From NCBI GenBank assembly GCA_946548065.1, contig CAMNPM010000004.1, positions 28,769 to 92,768 on the forward strand: DNA of 64,000 bases, written 5' to 3'. Origin of the DNA: an uncultured Prevotella sp. (GTDB lineage Bacteria > Bacteroidota > Bacteroidia > Bacteroidales > Bacteroidaceae). Below are positions 10,938-50,344 of the stretch, piece after piece. How positions within the stretch are numbered: position 1 is the first letter of the stretch; each line of letters begins with the position of its first letter. Both the position numbers and the translations under genes were made by a program. The notes beneath the pieces are model-generated. The model was not told the DNA's origin and made no database searches. It saw only the letters and a program-made list of their open reading frames with translations.

Positions 10938-12038
10938 TTATCTGCGTCCGCCGAAGGAACGTCCTCCGCCCATGCTCCGTCCACCACCGCTGTGGCCTCC
11001 TCCGCTGAAGCTTCCACCACCGCGTGTACCGCCTCCGCCAAAGCTTCCGCTGCTACCGAAGGACCGGCCTCCGCTGCCATAGGAGCTGCTGCGCCCACCT
11101 CCGCTGAAGCCTCCGCTGCTGTGGCTTCTGCCGCTAAAGCTTCCGCTGCCATAGGAGCTGCTGCGCCCGCCTCCACTGAAGCTTCCGCTGCTCTGGCTTC
11201 TGCCGCTAAAGCTTCCGCTGCCATAGGAGCTGCTGCGCCCGCCTCCGCTAAAGCTTCCGCTGCCATAAGAGCTGCTGCGCCCGCCTCCGTTGAAACTGCC
11301 GCTGCTGTGGCTTCTGCCGCTAAAGCTTCCGCTGCCGTAGTTGCCCGAGGTGCTGCCCGAGGGACGGCTACCGAAGGTGCGACCGCTGTTGTATGTGGTG
11401 CGACGTCCGCTGCTGCCTATGCCGGTTCGTCCGTGAACGGTGGTGCGGGTCGAGCTGATGCGGTAGCCGCCACCGTATGTGACGTGATGTCTGCTACTGT
11501 GGTGAACGCTGCGGAAGTCACCGCGGTTCCAACGGTCGAGCATTCCGAAGTGGCTTCGTCCTACGGGACGGAAGTGTTCGCGACGGCTGTGGTACCATCC
11601 GCGTCCGCCAACGACATGCCAAGCGTGTCCGCCTCTGTAGCTGGCGTAGAACGCCGGGCGTCCGAAGTAGAAATAGTCGCGGTGTGGATAGCGGGCGTAT
11701 ACGGCAAAGTGCCAGTAGCCGGCATCCCAGTAGAGTGGGCGGTAGAAATAGGTGGCGGCACAGAAAGCCTGCCACTGCCAGTCGAGCAGGATATAGCTCA
11801 TGTCGAGATTGCGACGCTCCCAATAGGTGGCGTAGACATCGTCGTAGCTGGTCACGCCCATCAGGTAGTCGAGGTTAATCTCGTAGGCAGCCTCATACTG
11901 CTCGTCGGTGAGATTAAGCTCATAGGCCATCTTGTCGGTCAGGAACAGAGCCTCGTTGCGAGCCTGCTCGTAGCTCATTGCCTTGCCCGTTGCTGCTATC
12001 GTCAGCAATGCTATCAGGGTCATCATCAACTTCTTCAT
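10938..12038 (-). CDS. Secreted Gly/Ser/Arg-rich repeat protein of unknown function
   Basis: 366 residues with a signal peptide (MKKLMMTLIALLTIAATGKA). Residues 21-180 form an aromatic- and His-rich region (repeated YWHFAVYARY-like text) and residues about 225-366 are a low-complexity GSGSFSGGGRSSSY tail with some Arg. I recognise this kind of exported Bacteroidetes protein but know no function. The tail repeats of 24, 14, 24 and 24 residues suggest recent expansion. The opposite strand is also open for 402 codons over this region, an artefact of the repeat. A TAATTTTG box lies about 50 bases upstream and a strong terminator follows. Confidence 0.75.
   Translation of the reverse strand: MKKLMMTLIALLTIAATGKAMSYEQARNEALFLTDKMAYELNLTDEQYEAAYEINLDYLMGVTSYDDVYATYWERRNLDMSYILLDWQWQAFCAATYFYRPLYWDAGYWHFAVYARYPHRDYFYFGRPAFYASYRGGHAWHVVGGRGWYHSRREHFRPVGRSHFGMLDRWNRGDFRSVHHSSRHHVTYGGGYRISSTRTTVHGRTGIGSSGRRTTYNSGRTFGSRPSGSTSGNYGSGSFSGRSHSSGSFNGGGRSSSYGSGSFSGGGRSSSYGSGSFSGRSQSSGSFSGGGRSSSYGSGSFSGRSHSSGGFSGGGRSSSYGSGGRSFGSSGSFGGGGTRGGGSFSGGGHSGGGRSMGGGRSFGGRR
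11079..11336 (-). repeat. Tandem 72/42-bp coding repeats in the Gly/Ser-rich tail
   Basis: Four units of 24, 14, 24 and 24 residues (GSGSFSGRSHSSGSF + GGGRSSSY type) are nearly identical at DNA level. The 14-residue unit is the long unit lacking its middle part. Confidence 0.85.
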
Positions 12039-39539: not shown

Positions 39540-41063
39540 ATGAAGAATAGTAATCTGACAAAACGTTTTTTTTTAGTGTGTTTACTGGTGGCTAGTCTGA
39601 CAGTGCAGCTGCAGGCTCAGCCGAGTTTCAACAGTCGTCCCAAGCTGGTCGTTGGCATCGTGGTCGACCAAATGCGATGGGACTATCTGTCGCGCTATTA
39701 CGACCGCTTCGGGGGGGATGGGTTCCGTAGGCTGATAGACCAAGGCTTCTCGTTCAACAACTGCTTGATTAATTATGTTCCGACAGTGACGGCAATCGGA
39801 CATACGAGTGTCTATACGGGTAGCACACCAGCGTTTCATGGCATTTGCGGTAACAACTTCAGCATCGACGGACGAGCAGTCTATTGCTGCGATGATGCGA
39901 GTGTGATGCCTGTGGGTAGTGACAACAAGAAAGACGGTCAGATGTCTCCTGTCAACCTGTTGACCACCACCATCGGTGACCAGCTGCGACTGCACACTGA
40001 CTTCCGTGCTAAGGTCATTGGGGTGTCGTATAAGGACCGTGCGGCAATCCTGCCTGCAGGACACTCGGCTAATGGTGCCTATTGGCTGGACCGGAAAAAT
40101 CGCTGTTTCATTACCAGTACCTATTATATGACTGAACTGCCTGAGTGGGCAAAGGTGTTTAATCACGATTTGAAGAACAACGAGGAGTTCAAGCGTTTGG
40201 GGCAGGATATCGGTTTGTCGCCTGAAGCAGGACATATCACTGTCGATATGGCCATTGCTGCCTTACGGGGTGAGAAGCTGGGGCAGGGTAGTGAGACCGA
40301 CATGTTGTGTGTGAGCTTTTCTCAGACCGATGTTATCGGTCATAAGTGGAGCACACGCGGGGAACATACCGACGAGGCTTATATGGGCGTAGACCGCGAT
40401 TTGGCTAAGCTCTTTCAGGTTCTCGACGAGAAGGTGGGCAAAGGTCAGTATCTGGTATTTCTTACTGCCGATCATGGAGCAGCCCACAATAGCCAGTTTA
40501 TGGTAGACAATCGGCTGCATGGTGGTCAATGGCTGTCGCGTGAGGTACGTGCTGACTTGGAGAAGTATATTGCTGATAAATTGGGCAACCGGCAGCCTGT
40601 GGTAGAGGCCATCCGCGACTACCGCTTTTACCTCGACCATGCCGCCATCGCCCAGCAGGGCCTCGACCTGCAACGAGTGAAAGACCTGGCCATCGAATTC
40701 TTGCGCAAGAGTCCATACCTGTCGTTCGTTGTAGACTTCGAGAAGGCAGCCTATGCACCGATTCCTCCCGTTTTGCGTGAACGTATCTTGATGGGATATC
40801 ATTATCGCCGCTCAGGTGACATCATCGTTGTGGTGGAACCTGGGTTCTATGAGTTTGGCCCTTGGTCGTCGCCAGTGGGAACCACTCATGGAGAATGGAA
40901 TCCCTACGATGCTCACATACCTCTGCTGTTTTATGGGTGGCAGGTTCCGCATGGACAATCGGAAGCTGAAGTATACATCACAGATATAGCACCTACGGTC
41001 TGTTCGTTGTTACATATTCAACAACCTAATGCTTGTGTAGGGCGCGCTCTGAAATTTAATTGA
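39540..41063 (+). CDS. PafA-like alkaline phosphatase superfamily enzyme
   Basis: 507 residues from MKNSNLTKRFFLVCLLVASLTVQLQAQ (signal peptide) at 39540; the track start at 39456 lies upstream of the promoter. Alkaline phosphatase superfamily features: LVVGIVVDQMRWDYL (metal-binding Asp), the stretch VPTVTAIGHTSVYTG where PafA has its nucleophilic Thr, FSQTDVIGHKWS, LTADHGAAHN and the late THGEWNPYDAHIPLLFYG. PafA is the phosphate-irrepressible periplasmic phosphomonoesterase of Bacteroidetes. Free phosphate release from organic phosphates in the periplasm is likely. Confidence 0.85.
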   Translation: MKNSNLTKRFFLVCLLVASLTVQLQAQPSFNSRPKLVVGIVVDQMRWDYLSRYYDRFGGDGFRRLIDQGFSFNNCLINYVPTVTAIGHTSVYTGSTPAFHGICGNNFSIDGRAVYCCDDASVMPVGSDNKKDGQMSPVNLLTTTIGDQLRLHTDFRAKVIGVSYKDRAAILPAGHSANGAYWLDRKNRCFITSTYYMTELPEWAKVFNHDLKNNEEFKRLGQDIGLSPEAGHITVDMAIAALRGEKLGQGSETDMLCVSFSQTDVIGHKWSTRGEHTDEAYMGVDRDLAKLFQVLDEKVGKGQYLVFLTADHGAAHNSQFMVDNRLHGGQWLSREVRADLEKYIADKLGNRQPVVEAIRDYRFYLDHAAIAQQGLDLQRVKDLAIEFLRKSPYLSFVVDFEKAAYAPIPPVLRERILMGYHYRRSGDIIVVVEPGFYEFGPWSSPVGTTHGEWNPYDAHIPLLFYGWQVPHGQSEAEVYITDIAPTVCSLLHIQQPNACVGRALKFN

Positions 41064-41419: not shown

Positions 41420-41483
41420 TTTATTTTTCCAGTTTTTATTCAAATTATTCTTCCTATATTCTTCATTATTCATTTTTTATTTG

Positions 41484-41491
41484 TAACTTTG
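41484..41491 (+). promoter_or_regulatory. Promoter -7 element of the nuo operon
   Basis: TAACTTTG about 41 bases before the nuoA ATG. The -33 region is AT-rich without an exact TTTG. Confidence 0.55.
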
Positions 41492-41532
41492 CATCCGCTT
41501 AAGCGAGTACAATATTATAATATTATATTTTT

Positions 41533-41883
41533 ATGAACTTTACTTTGTTAATTACCGTCTTGTTGACGGCTGTAACATTGGTGGCAGGAGCTTACGTTGT
41601 TGCTAAGCTCATAGGACCCCGTTCTTATAACAAAGTGAAAGGCGAACCCTACGAGTGTGGTATTCCCACTCACGGCTCGTCTTGGCTTCCTGTAAGCGTG
41701 GGATTCTATCTGTTTGCTATCTTGTTCCTGATGTTCGACGTGGAGACAGTTTTTCTGTACCCGTGGGCAGTAGTTGTAAAGGAATTCGGTGCTGCCGCAT
41801 TGATGAGCATCGGATTCTTTTTGGTTGTTCTGGTGCTGGGCTTGGCTTATGCCTGGCGGAAAGGAGACTTGGAATGGAAGTAA
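41533..41883 (+). CDS. nuoA: Complex I subunit A
   Basis: 116 residues with three membrane helices. It belongs to the membrane arm next to the quinone site. Conserved loop KGEPYECGIPTHGSSWLPVSVGFYLFAILFLMFDVETVFLYPW, of which EPYECGI and FDVETVF are diagnostic. First gene of the nuo operon; nuoB begins ten bases before its end. Confidence 0.96.
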   Translation: MNFTLLITVLLTAVTLVAGAYVVAKLIGPRSYNKVKGEPYECGIPTHGSSWLPVSVGFYLFAILFLMFDVETVFLYPWAVVVKEFGAAALMSIGFFLVVLVLGLAYAWRKGDLEWK

Positions 41884-44218: not shown

Positions 44219-44250
44219 TTAAGAGTTAAGAATAAAGAATTATAGAATAT
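44219..44250 (+). repeat. Degenerate 7-bp TTAAGAA-type spacer before nuoH
   Basis: The nuoCD-nuoH spacer reads as units TTAAGAG, TTAAGAA, TAAAGAA and TTATAGAA up to the ATG. The spacer before the aldo/keto reductase gene (8238-8262, minus) is built in the same way. Confidence 0.55.
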
Positions 44251-45339: not shown

Positions 45340-45340
45340 G

Positions 45341-45382
45341 TAAACTAGAAATGCTAGCGATACTAGTTAAACTAGAAAAACA
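45341..45382 (+). repeat. 9-bp CTAG array as the nuoH-nuoI spacer
   Basis: Units AAACTAGAA, ATGCTAGCG, ATACTAGTT, AAACTAGAA then AAAC directly before the nuoI ATG. Period 9, core CTAG, as in the polyferredoxin linker array. Confidence 0.85.
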
Positions 45383-46768: not shown

Positions 46769-46813
46769 GGGATAAGAAATAAAGAATGTATAAACTGAAT
46801 AATTAAAGTTTTT

Positions 46814-48736
46814 ATGGATATATATAGTTATTCCTTCCTGATTCTTCTGCTGCCTGCGCTCTCCTTCGTGATTCTTGCGCTGGCGGGTATGAAGATGTCG
46901 CATAAGACCGCAGGCCTTATCGGCACCACCTCGTTAGGATTGGTTACCGTGCTGTCCTATCTGACGGCTTTCGCCTATTTCGGAGGCGACCGTCTGGCTA
47001 ATGGCACATTCCCCACATTGGTTCCCTACAACTTCACCTGGCTGCCGCTGGGCAACCTACACTTCGACATGGGCATCCTGCTGGATCCTATCTCGGTGAT
47101 GATGCTCATCGTCATCAGCACGGTGTCGTTTATGGTACATGTCTATTCCTTCGGCTATATGCACGGTGAGAAGGGTTTCCAGCGTTACTACGCCTTCCTC
47201 TCGCTGTTCACCATGTCGATGCTCGGACTGGTGCTTGCCACCAATATCTTCCAGATGTACACTTTCTGGGAACTGGTGGGCGTCAGCTCTTATCTGCTCA
47301 TCGGTTTCTACTATCCGCTGAAGCCGGCCATAGCAGCATCCAAGAAAGCATTTATCGTGACGCGCTTTGCCGATATGTTCTTCCTTATCGGTATTCTGCT
47401 CTTCGGTTTCTATTCCGGTACGTTCTCATTCGACTTCACCGTCGAGGGTTCGGTACGCGAGTATGCCGGTGCTGCCTTCGTCCTGCCTACTGCCCTGGTG
47501 CTGATGTTCATTGGTGGTGCCGGTAAGTCGGCCATGTTCCCGCTGCACATTTGGCTGCCCGACGCTATGGAGGGTCCTACGCCTGTCTCCGCACTCATCC
47601 ATGCCGCTACGATGGTGGTGGCCGGTGTGTTCCAGATTGCACGTATGTTCCCCTTGTGGATCAATTACGCACCCTCGTCACTGAGCATTGTGGTCTGGGT
47701 GGGTGTATTCACCGCTTTCTATGCTGCCGCTGTGGCGTGTGCACAGAGTGACATCAAGCGTGTGCTGGCTTTCTCCACCATCTCGCAGATTGCCTTCATG
47801 ATGGTGGCTCTCGGTGTTTGTCTGCCCGGACATCATGGCGCCGTGCTCGACAACCACGCTCAGCTGGGCTATATGGCCTCGATGTTCCACCTGTTCACTC
47901 ACGCCATGTTCAAGGCTTGCTTGTTCCTTGGGGCCGGATGCATCATTCATGCTGTCCACAGCAACGAGATGTCGATGATGGGTGGCTTGCGCAAGTACAT
48001 GCCTATCACTCACATCACGTTCCTCATTTCATGTCTGGCCATTGCCGGTATTCCACCGTTCTCGGGATTCTTCTCGAAGGATGAGATCCTGACTGCCTGC
48101 ATGCAGTACAGTCCTGTCTGCGGTTGGATTATGACGGGTGTGGCTGCGATGACGGCATTCTATATGTTCCGCCTTTACTACGGCATCTTCTGGGGAACAG
48201 AGAATAAGGAGGCTCATGCTCATCATACACCCCACGAGGCACCGTGGACCATGACCTTCCCGCTGATATTCCTTTCGGTGGTCACCTGTCTGTGTGGCTT
48301 CCTGCCCTTCGGACACTTCGTGTCTGCCAGCGGTCAGGCCTACGACATCCACCTCGACTGGACCGTTGCAGGAACCTCTATTGTCATAGCAGTCTGCTCC
48401 ATCTGTCTGGCCACCTATATATATAAAGGTGAGTCGCAGCCCGTTGCCGACCGTCTGTTCAAGACGTTCCCACGTCTGCACCAGGCAGCCTACAAGCGCT
48501 TCTATCAGGATGAGATCTGGCAGTATGTCACTCACCGCATCATCTTCCGCTGCATCTCCAAGCCCGTGGCCTGGTTCGACCGCCACGTGGTTGACGGAAC
48601 GTTCAATTTCTTGGCCTGGGGTGCCAACGAGGCCGGTGAGAGCCTCCGTCCCTGGCAGAGCGGTGATGTGCGCCAGTATGCTGTGTGGTTCCTCACGGGA
48701 ACGGTGGCTTTAACGCTGGTTCTTTTGGCGGTTTAA
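46814..48736 (+). CDS. nuoL: Complex I subunit L
   Basis: 640-residue antiporter-like subunit at the distal end of the membrane arm, with about 16 helices and the lateral helix. Diagnostic text: YTFWELVGVSSYLLIGFYY, SAMFPLHIWLPDAMEGPTPVSALIHAATMVVAG, DIKRVLAFSTISQIAFMMVALG, THAMFKACLFLGAGCIIH and GIPPFSGFFSKDEIL. The three antiporter-like genes nuoL, nuoM and nuoN are in the usual order. Confidence 0.96.
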   Translation: MDIYSYSFLILLLPALSFVILALAGMKMSHKTAGLIGTTSLGLVTVLSYLTAFAYFGGDRLANGTFPTLVPYNFTWLPLGNLHFDMGILLDPISVMMLIVISTVSFMVHVYSFGYMHGEKGFQRYYAFLSLFTMSMLGLVLATNIFQMYTFWELVGVSSYLLIGFYYPLKPAIAASKKAFIVTRFADMFFLIGILLFGFYSGTFSFDFTVEGSVREYAGAAFVLPTALVLMFIGGAGKSAMFPLHIWLPDAMEGPTPVSALIHAATMVVAGVFQIARMFPLWINYAPSSLSIVVWVGVFTAFYAAAVACAQSDIKRVLAFSTISQIAFMMVALGVCLPGHHGAVLDNHAQLGYMASMFHLFTHAMFKACLFLGAGCIIHAVHSNEMSMMGGLRKYMPITHITFLISCLAIAGIPPFSGFFSKDEILTACMQYSPVCGWIMTGVAAMTAFYMFRLYYGIFWGTENKEAHAHHTPHEAPWTMTFPLIFLSVVTCLCGFLPFGHFVSASGQAYDIHLDWTVAGTSIVIAVCSICLATYIYKGESQPVADRLFKTFPRLHQAAYKRFYQDEIWQYVTHRIIFRCISKPVAWFDRHVVDGTFNFLAWGANEAGESLRPWQSGDVRQYAVWFLTGTVALTLVLLAV

Positions 48737-48741
48737 TAACA

Positions 48742-48797
48742 TCGAAATATCGAAGTCTCGAAACTTCGAAACCTCGAAATAACGAAACAACGAAACA
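48742..48797 (+). repeat. 8-bp tandem array (seven units) as the nuoL-nuoM spacer
   Basis: ATCGAAAT, ATCGAAGT, CTCGAAAC, TTCGAAAC, CTCGAAAT, AACGAAAC, AACGAAAC follow each other without gaps and end at the base before the nuoM ATG. Confidence 0.93.
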
Positions 48798-50279
48798 ATG
48801 AGTATATTAAGTTTATTTGTCGTAATTCCCGCCCTGATGCTCTTGGGCCTTTGGCTGGCCAAGAACCTTAGTCAGGTGCGTGGTGTGATGGTGGCAGGTG
48901 CCTCATGTCTGCTGGCCCTGTCCGTATGGCTTACCATCTATTTCGTTCAGCAGCGAGCCGCAGGCAATACCGACGTGATGCTGCTGACGGCTTCCACACC
49001 GTGGTTCAAGCCTCTGAATATAGCCTATTCCGTGGGTGTCGACGGCATTTCGGTGGTCATGCTGCTCCTGTCGAGCATCATCGTCTTCACCGGTACCTTC
49101 GCTTCCTGGCAGTTGAAACCTATGACGAAGGAGTATTTCCTTTGGTTCACCCTCCTCTCGACGGGTGTCTATGGCTTCTTCATCTGCACCGATATGTTCA
49201 CCATGTTTATGTTCTATGAGGTGGCTCTGATTCCCATGTACCTGCTGATAGGCGTGTGGGGCTCTGGCAACAAGGAGTATGCTGCTATGAAGCTGACCCT
49301 GATGCTGATGGGTGGCTCAGCCCTGCTGATTCTCGGCATCCTGGGCATCTATTACTTCAGTGGTGCCACTACGATGAATGTCAACGAGATTGCTGCCATG
49401 CACAATATCCCCGTTGAGACGCAGAAGATCTTCTTCCCGTTCATCTTCATCGGATTTGGCGTGCTGGGTGCGCTGTTCCCCTTCCATACATGGTCGCCCG
49501 ACGGTCATGCTTCAGCCCCTACGGCAGTGTCGATGCTGCATGCGGGTGTGCTGATGAAGCTGGGAGGCTACGGCTGTTTCCGTGTAGCCATGTACTTGCT
49601 GCCTGATGCTGCCAACGAACTGGCTTGGATATTCCTTATCCTGACCACCATCTCGGTAGTCTATGGTGCCTTCTCGGCTTGTGTGCAGACCGACCTGAAG
49701 TACATCAATGCTTATTCGTCCGTGTCGCACTGTGGACTGGTGCTCTTTGCTCTGCTCATGATGACCAAGACCTCTTGCACGGGTGCTATCCTGCAGATGC
49801 TGTCGCACGGTCTGATGACGGCCCTCTTCTTTGCCCTCATTGGTATGATCTATGGCCGCACCCACACCCGCGACATCCGCTACTTGGACGGTCTGATGAA
49901 GATTATGCCGTTCCTGGCCGTGGGCTATGTCGTGGCTGGTCTGGCCAACCTCGGTCTGCCGGGCTTCTCGGGCTTCATCGCTGAGATGACTATCTTCGTG
50001 GGTTCGTTCGAGAATGCCGACACCTTCCATCGTGTGGCTACCATCATCGCCTGTACGTCGATTGTCGTCACCGCTGTCTATATCCTGCGTGTCGTCGGTA
50101 AGATTCTGTATGGCGAGGTGAAGAACCCCCACTATCTGGAGCTCACCGATGCTACCTGGGACGAGCGTGTCGCCGTCATCTGCCTCATTGCTTGTGTGGC
50201 AGGCCTCGGACTCTTCCCCCTCTGGGCAAGCAATGTTATCAGCGATGCTGTAGGGCCCATCCTCGCGAACATCATATAA
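48798..50279 (+). CDS. nuoM: Complex I subunit M
   Basis: 493 residues, about 14 helices, antiporter-like proton pump subunit. Conserved Glu in MFYEVALIPMYLLIGVWG, the channel helix FPFHTWSPDGHASAPTAVSMLHAGVLMKLGGYG and DLKYINAYSSVSHCGLVLF. The gene is flanked on both sides by short-period repeat spacers. Confidence 0.96.
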   Translation: MSILSLFVVIPALMLLGLWLAKNLSQVRGVMVAGASCLLALSVWLTIYFVQQRAAGNTDVMLLTASTPWFKPLNIAYSVGVDGISVVMLLLSSIIVFTGTFASWQLKPMTKEYFLWFTLLSTGVYGFFICTDMFTMFMFYEVALIPMYLLIGVWGSGNKEYAAMKLTLMLMGGSALLILGILGIYYFSGATTMNVNEIAAMHNIPVETQKIFFPFIFIGFGVLGALFPFHTWSPDGHASAPTAVSMLHAGVLMKLGGYGCFRVAMYLLPDAANELAWIFLILTTISVVYGAFSACVQTDLKYINAYSSVSHCGLVLFALLMMTKTSCTGAILQMLSHGLMTALFFALIGMIYGRTHTRDIRYLDGLMKIMPFLAVGYVVAGLANLGLPGFSGFIAEMTIFVGSFENADTFHRVATIIACTSIVVTAVYILRVVGKILYGEVKNPHYLELTDATWDERVAVICLIACVAGLGLFPLWASNVISDAVGPILANII

Positions 50280-50281
50280 AC

Positions 50282-50339
50282 GGTAAATTCGCCAAATAGT
50301 AAATAAATCGTAAATAGTAAATCGTTAAATCGTAAATTA
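50282..50339 (+). repeat. 7-8-bp (C/A)GTAAAT array as the nuoM-nuoN spacer
   Basis: Units of the type CGTAAAT, AGTAAAT and CGTTAAAT fill the spacer. It contains the word AAATCGTAAATAGTAAATCG (plus T), which is repeated exactly inside nuoN at 50643. Confidence 0.88.
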
Positions 50340-50344
50340 CTTTT

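Follow-up and report, generated by a model that had tools for sequence, protein, structure and literature searches.

The 61-nt spacer between nuoL and nuoM in an uncultured Prevotella sp. contains a tandem array of seven degenerate 8-mers, which is one of many arrays scattered over the genome, sense-oriented and placed within operons. Arrays of this class show patterns of multi-unit duplication and, at orthologous junctions, are replaced by other repeats or absent. On balance, we favor the explanation that the array is an intercistronic repeat that has grown by local duplication and is tolerated as a permissive, A-rich stretch on which ribosomes can land. Under this scenario, one to four 8-bp units would have been duplicated locally at a once compact nuoL-nuoM junction, with the copies subsequently diverging via point mutation. 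The product would be tolerated, and perhaps be mildly useful, owing to an A-rich sense strand and to about 20 nt before the start that are predicted to be unpaired, as initiation independent of the Shine-Dalgarno (SD) sequence is thought to require in Bacteroidetes. The array would then be an interchangeable ribosome-landing spacer and not a conserved regulator of nuoM.

The array between nuoL and nuoM

The window analyzed here is the whole 64,000-nucleotide stretch of DNA. In this window, the open reading frame of nuoL (46814–48736, plus strand; NCBIfam NuoL, E = 2.8e-176) ends with a TAA stop codon at 48734–48736, and that of nuoM (48798–50279, plus strand; NCBIfam NDH_I_M, E = 2.8e-126) begins after a spacer at 48737–48797. 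The array, at 48742–48797 on the plus strand, consists of 8-mers of the form (T/A)CGAANNN, which read, in order, TCGAAATA TCGAAGTC TCGAAACT TCGAAACC TCGAAATA ACGAAACA ACGAAACA, followed by the ATG at 48798. None of 20,000 dinucleotide-preserving shuffles reached the lag-8 score of the spacer, which rules out a chance origin. The seven 8-mers with a CGAA core described in the earlier note, ending at the nuoM start codon, are thus real. They do not fill the spacer exactly, as had been claimed, given that 5 nt separate the nuoL stop codon from the array, and their perfect phasing to the ATG reflects the choice of register: the array can also be read as NNNCGAAA from 48740, and in the sister octamer arrays, the distance between the last CGAA and the ATG varies from 1 to 62 nt, so that there is no fixed phase. 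The units are far from identical, with five kinds among the seven and 78% matches at period 8 in Tandem Repeats Finder (TRF). In the same program, period 24 scored higher than period 8 (71 against 57), which suggests that the units were probably duplicated in threes.

There were no Rfam matches above the gathering score between positions 41000 and 52000 of the window, ruling out a known structured RNA family, and no sigma-70-like promoter was predicted between 48600 and 48900, although Bacteroidetes promoters fall outside the models of that tool. The spacer itself contains no TAACTGA, and no GC-rich palindrome adjoins the array.

Short-period spacers had also been noted before nuoH, nuoI and nuoN. 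All of these are on the plus strand, and the claim holds for nuoI, where the nuoH-nuoI spacer (45340–45382) carries a 9-bp CTAG array whose score was reached by 18 of 20,000 shuffles, and for nuoN, where the nuoM-nuoN spacer (50280–50344) carries a 7-bp array of TAAATCG/TAAATAG (140 of 20,000). It holds only weakly for nuoH: the 7-bp array (TTAAGAG/A) in the nuoCD-nuoH spacer (44219–44250) was matched by 291 of 20,000 shuffles. The companion statement that the remaining nuo junctions all overlap or measure 3–6 nt is refuted by the nuoK-nuoL spacer (46769–46813, plus strand), which is 45 nt long and array-free (11,197 of 20,000 shuffles reached its best score). The NCBIfam matches of NuoL, M, N, H and D were above the cut-offs, whereas I gave weaker matches. 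Upstream of nuoA (41440–41540), a T-rich, TTCATT-type stretch is followed by TTTGTAACTTTGCA, which we take to resemble a Bacteroidetes promoter; given this arrangement, T-rich arrays may accompany promoters and A-rich arrays internal starts. The longer tandem repeats at 1023–1128 (18 bp) and 11070–11340 (72 and 114 bp), with periods divisible by three, probably lie within coding sequence.

Repeat words and their placement in Prevotella genomes

Short-period arrays are common in this part of the genus. We surveyed spacers of 15–400 nt; in unannotated stretches, genes came from a home-made codon-usage caller that considers ATG starts only, and the spacer counts vary slightly between surveys, as the gene models differ. 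In 432,768 bases of the host genome (bin G000), self-matches at lags 7 and 8 were in excess in both codirectional spacers (z = 5.0 and 7.6) and divergent ones (z = 3.8 and 8.3), and 29 of 190 spacers were periodic at p ≤ 0.01, against 1.9 expected. At the same threshold and with codon models trained per genome, 111 of 584 sampled spacers from eight related Prevotella contained arrays, and periodic arrays were found in 5 of 114 spacers from seven other Prevotella, 7 of 139 from seven other Bacteroidota samples and none of 26 from E. coli. Among the 116 periodic spacers in the pool of 698 from 15 Prevotella (shuffle p ≤ 0.01), period 7 prevailed (70 arrays), followed by 8 (23), 9 (9), 10 (8), 11 (5) and 12 (1), with none at 5 or 6. 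The words found include CGAAAYAT, TAAATAG/TAAATCG, GAATTAA, GAGTTGA, CTAG 9-mers and TAAATGA, and several of them coexist in one genome. A nuo-specific device is ruled out because the same kind of array precedes unrelated genes.

Across 150 genomes of the genus, the octamer pattern was found at 9 loci in the host genome, 14 in G040 and 9 in G083 (17, 25 and 14 overlapping matches, respectively), at 1–2 loci in 13 further genomes, and at none in the remaining 134; the reversed pattern, used as a control, had no match in these 150 genomes. A close variant of the pattern matched only the host among 198 sampled genomes of the phylum. In a scan of GTDB genomes, the matches listed were mostly Prevotella and Bacteroidales bins, many of which bear titles that mention rumen or forestomach. 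Other genomes favor other words: G101 is rich in TAAATMG arrays and G032 in TAAATGA arrays. Judged by these sequence matches, the octamer is a lineage-specific word, or “dialect”. Genome-specific sub-variants of the unit were not significant (permutation p = 0.12).

Within the octamer unit, the CG core is conserved and the triplet preceding it is variable, with minority counts of 2 and 7 against 33, 24 and 19 (chi-square p = 7e-8, a value that is biased because the register was chosen by CG). The same tendency is present, less cleanly, in the nuoL-nuoM arrays of relatives, and it hints at a constraint on the word. Spacers without arrays show no excess of single CGAA copies (14 observed against 18.0 expected), so that a lone CGAA can be rejected as a general start-site motif, and no stock of seed units is seen.

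The placement of the octamer arrays is strongly biased. In the host genome, G083 and G040, 28 of 32 arrays occupy codirectional spacers, and 30 of 31 face the next gene, often beginning 1–8 nt past the stop codon. For a broader set, 69 of 80 loci among the matches listed were used, the other 11 being left out because their titles did not indicate Bacteroidales; among these matches listed, 57 of 71 arrays in Bacteroidales loci have codirectional neighbors and the sense orientation, 6 of 71 are inside called ORFs, and 61 of the 64 intergenic arrays with a called right neighbor face its start. In the pooled set, which derives in part from the matches listed, 87 of 94 octamer arrays are in codirectional spacers, compared with 502 of all 698 spacers, and 85 of the 87 are in the sense orientation; four arrays from G040 and G083 were probably counted twice, and for unique arrays, the respective values would be 83 of 90 and 81 of 83. 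Convergent spacers account for only 2 of these 94 arrays (again partly from the matches listed) but for 87 of the 698 spacers, an avoidance that plain slippage is insufficient to explain. The codirectional bias is clear in the octamer class only, because for all array classes together, the comparison is not significant (89 of 502 codirectional and 10 of 87 convergent spacers; Fisher p = 0.17). The best families of ten proteins encoded downstream of octamer arrays are groEL, ftsZ, mraY, pyrH and purE, along with gldM, lgt, manA, a C-terminal protease and a carboxylase subunit.

Turnover at orthologous junctions

Comparison of nuo operons from 21 species revealed arrays (p ≤ 0.01) at nuoCD-H in 7 species, H-I in 7, K-L in 2, L-M in 10 and M-N in 4, and none at the readable A-B (20), B-C, I-J or J-K junctions; two artefact rows (G128 B-C and G106 M-N) were left out of these counts, and loci L010 and L018 had no usable spacer. 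Of the 47 spacers measuring 30 nt or more, 30 were arrays, compared with none of the 28 spacers of 15–29 nt, and another 111 junctions were shorter than 15 nt or overlapping. Thus, nuo junctions are either compact or mostly filled with arrays.

At the L-M junction, the spacer length varies among species between 6 and 180 nt, and the arrays of the 10 species belong to four word families: octamers in seven (G000, G037, G032, G106, G051, G006 and G028), two kinds of 9-mer (G094 and G069) and a 7-mer (G138). The other 11 species have no significant array, eight of them with spacers of 6–15 nt and three with 37–47 nt. Relatives devoid of repeat structure, which the earlier note had named as counting against its reading, were thus found in about half of the cases. 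The array before nuoM is dispensable, given that 11 of 21 species lack a significant one and that eight of these manage with 6–15 nt; a conserved regulatory element at nuoM is ruled out. The 15-nt L-M spacer ATCGAAAGTACAATT is common to G074 and G055. Not every array-free ortholog retains a seed unit; one is present in some, such as CGAAAATAACAAT in G083, and absent from others. At the H-I junction, CTAG-type 9-bp arrays are present in 4 of 20 relatives. At other sites, one junction carries TAAATAG words in the host but octamers in G040, a second has a 150-nt octamer array in the host against 6 nt in G101, and a third has octamers in G040 and G083 and none in the host.

Three further loci are worth recording. 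A second nuoM in the host bin (G000:C55:473-1951; L031) encodes a 97% identical protein and is preceded by an L-M spacer with TAAAT-type words, as read by eye; it is probably the contribution of a related strain or species to a mixed assembly. In G138 (L285), where NuoM is 99% identical, inverted arrays of ATGAGAA and TTCTCAT flank a GGGCTGCGCC palindrome within the 180-nt L-M spacer. Finally, at an orthologous operon boundary (L050:2122-2305 in G000; L230:2053 onwards in G040), a loop lies between a purine-rich array and the inverse complement of that array, immediately upstream of a TAnnTTTG-type sequence, presumably a promoter motif. Between the two genomes, both arms have been replaced by a new word, with the complementarity retained.

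Origin and possible role of the arrays

The best self-match was at 16, 24 or 32 bp in 19 of 38 octamer arrays, which points to duplication of several units at a time. The mean longest substring common to different octamer arrays was close in length to the expectation under the unit-order null (host, 17.4 and 17.2, respectively; G040, 18.7 and 17.8). There is thus no signal of recent copying of multi-unit blocks between loci, and growth appears to have been local and stepwise because such blocks are not shared across loci beyond chance.

Ribosomes of Bacteroidetes retain the anti-SD sequence but hardly use it. The nuoM spacer had been described as unstructured, and this applies to its last 20 nt (48778–48797, plus strand), which are predicted to be unpaired; the 5' two thirds are predicted to fold, with diverged units paired in a hairpin at 48742–48777 (plus strand), that is, at or beyond position -21, and a minimum free energy of -11.0 kcal/mol, where shuffles average -5.5. 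In Prevotella bryantii, a hairpin of -9 kcal/mol at -21 left expression unlowered, whereas a structure of -5.2 kcal/mol near the start reduced it to about one fifth (PMC3155529). In Flavobacterium johnsoniae, a Bacteroidetes model, A at -3, -6, -12 and -13 is reported as favorable (PMC6847099), and nuoM has A at three of these positions (-3, -12 and -13), as well as at -1, but G at -6. The suggested suitability for translation initiation is partly supported: the A-rich sense strand, the tail predicted to be unpaired and A at -3, -12 and -13 agree with it, and G at -6 does not. More generally, near-start arrays in codirectional spacers have more A than T in 51 of 60 cases, array tails are predicted to fold less stably than those of non-array spacers (mean -4.1 and -6.9, respectively) but more stably than their own shuffles (-3.0), and for all 29 of the octamer arrays compared, weaker folding is predicted on the sense than on the antisense strand. 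The predicted features of the nuoM spacer and the A-rich, weakly folded array tails fit a permissive landing stretch.

Local growth combined with tolerance accounts for the presence, direction and turnover of the arrays. It leaves unaccounted the occurrence of one word at many unlinked junctions, the avoidance of convergent spacers and the conserved core. In particular, the same octamer occupies 9–14 unlinked loci in three genomes and 0–2 in the other 147, a pattern that neutral growth does not explain. A bolder reading, which we advance as possible but doubtful, is that each Prevotella lineage writes its own 7–9-bp sense word between stop and start codons in many housekeeping operons and swaps it rapidly at orthologous junctions; for example, CGAAAYAT precedes nuoM here, and groEL and ftsZ in a sister genome. 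If so, either a lineage-specific RNA-binding reader, for which the word would be an initiation signal replacing the SD sequence, or an unknown seeding process would be needed. It seems unlikely to us that the octamer is a selected cis element in the intercistronic mRNA, recognized by an RNA-binding protein (S1-like, of the cold-shock type or another) through which de novo initiation on the next gene would be promoted, with words differing between lineages because the reader differs. The sense orientation and codirectional bias of the octamer arrays (in the pool partly from the matches listed), the lineage specificity of the words, the CG core conserved next to variable triplets and the placement before groEL, ftsZ, mraY and pyrH would all agree with such an element, but the lack of enrichment of single-copy CGAA in non-array spacers, the other words or none at orthologous genes and the multiple words within one genome speak against it.

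The presence of one word at many unlinked loci could also be explained if gene conversion, template switching or a mobile element similar to REP sequences had carried copies of array fragments from one junction to another, with orientation then filtered by selection. We consider this improbable: the substrings shared by octamer arrays do not exceed the unit-order null, and the octamer arrays inspected in G000, G083 and G040 have no palindrome beside them of the kind that makes the G032 arrays look like a mobile composite. In that genome (L365-L379; e.g., L365:3780-3806, reverse complement), TAAATGA arrays are nearly always placed directly after a short GC palindrome, of which cgggcttcgccc and cggcctgcggcc are examples, and 18 of 28 are in the sense orientation between codirectional genes; the composite looks like a REP-type mobile element. 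A telomerase-like reverse transcriptase of the DRT10 type, if it wrote repeats from a template at breaks, would likewise put the same word at many loci, and such enzymes produce tandem-repeat DNA (PMC12632851), but we regard its involvement as extremely improbable. The RVT_1 domain was unmatched in G000 (74% complete), G040, G083, G101 and G032, four of these bins being only 73–84% complete, and was matched in 4 of 7 other genomes searched. A contingency device, in which unit numbers change at a high rate and tune the NuoM level along the lines of the earlier note, draws on the wide range of L-M spacer lengths and appears very unlikely. Units with 78% matches lower slippage, about half of the species lack the array at nuoM, and the subunits of complex I are needed in a fixed ratio. 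The suggestion of the earlier note that the arrays set subunit stoichiometry is not supported, as the array at nuoM is dispensable and the same arrays precede groEL, ftsZ and purE. Contingency loci made of simple sequence repeats typically have near-identical units near genes and vary in length among strains, unlike the five kinds of unit in seven found here.

Among known systems, cyanobacterial heptameric STRR sequences, which are 7-bp intergenic arrays with lineage-specific words, resemble the Prevotella arrays by description. The closest published case is that of the TAACTGA repeats of marine Beggiatoaceae, Cyanobacteria and some Bacteroidetes (MacGregor 2015, PMC4679880). These repeats share with the Prevotella arrays the short forward tandem units just upstream of starts, the many unrelated loci per genome and the patchy phylogeny, and a role in translation was proposed for them. 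The Prevotella arrays differ in that the word is another octamer, the units are degenerate, several words occur per genome, the spacer from stop to start is filled, and words are swapped at orthologous junctions. The SD-independent initiation regions of Bacteroidetes have a similarly A-rich, weakly structured stretch before the start and tolerate a hairpin at -21, but in the main texts on them they are not described as tandem repeats, the word “repeat” appearing 0 times (PMC3155529, PMC6847099). Among the open-licence PMC papers listed by our searches, none has a title or abstract opening that describes such arrays in Prevotella.

These observations caution against taking one neat array for a gene-specific regulator. 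More broadly, they bear on how the ribosomes of Bacteroidetes find internal starts in operons. With words turning over rapidly at shared junctions in essential operons, the clade offers a natural swap experiment and provides many pairs of orthologous start sites that differ mainly in the upstream word and its length. If the word or the length matters, the initiation rule becomes readable from such pairs; if neither does, the pairs show the freedom of these regions and the way in which operon spacers grow.
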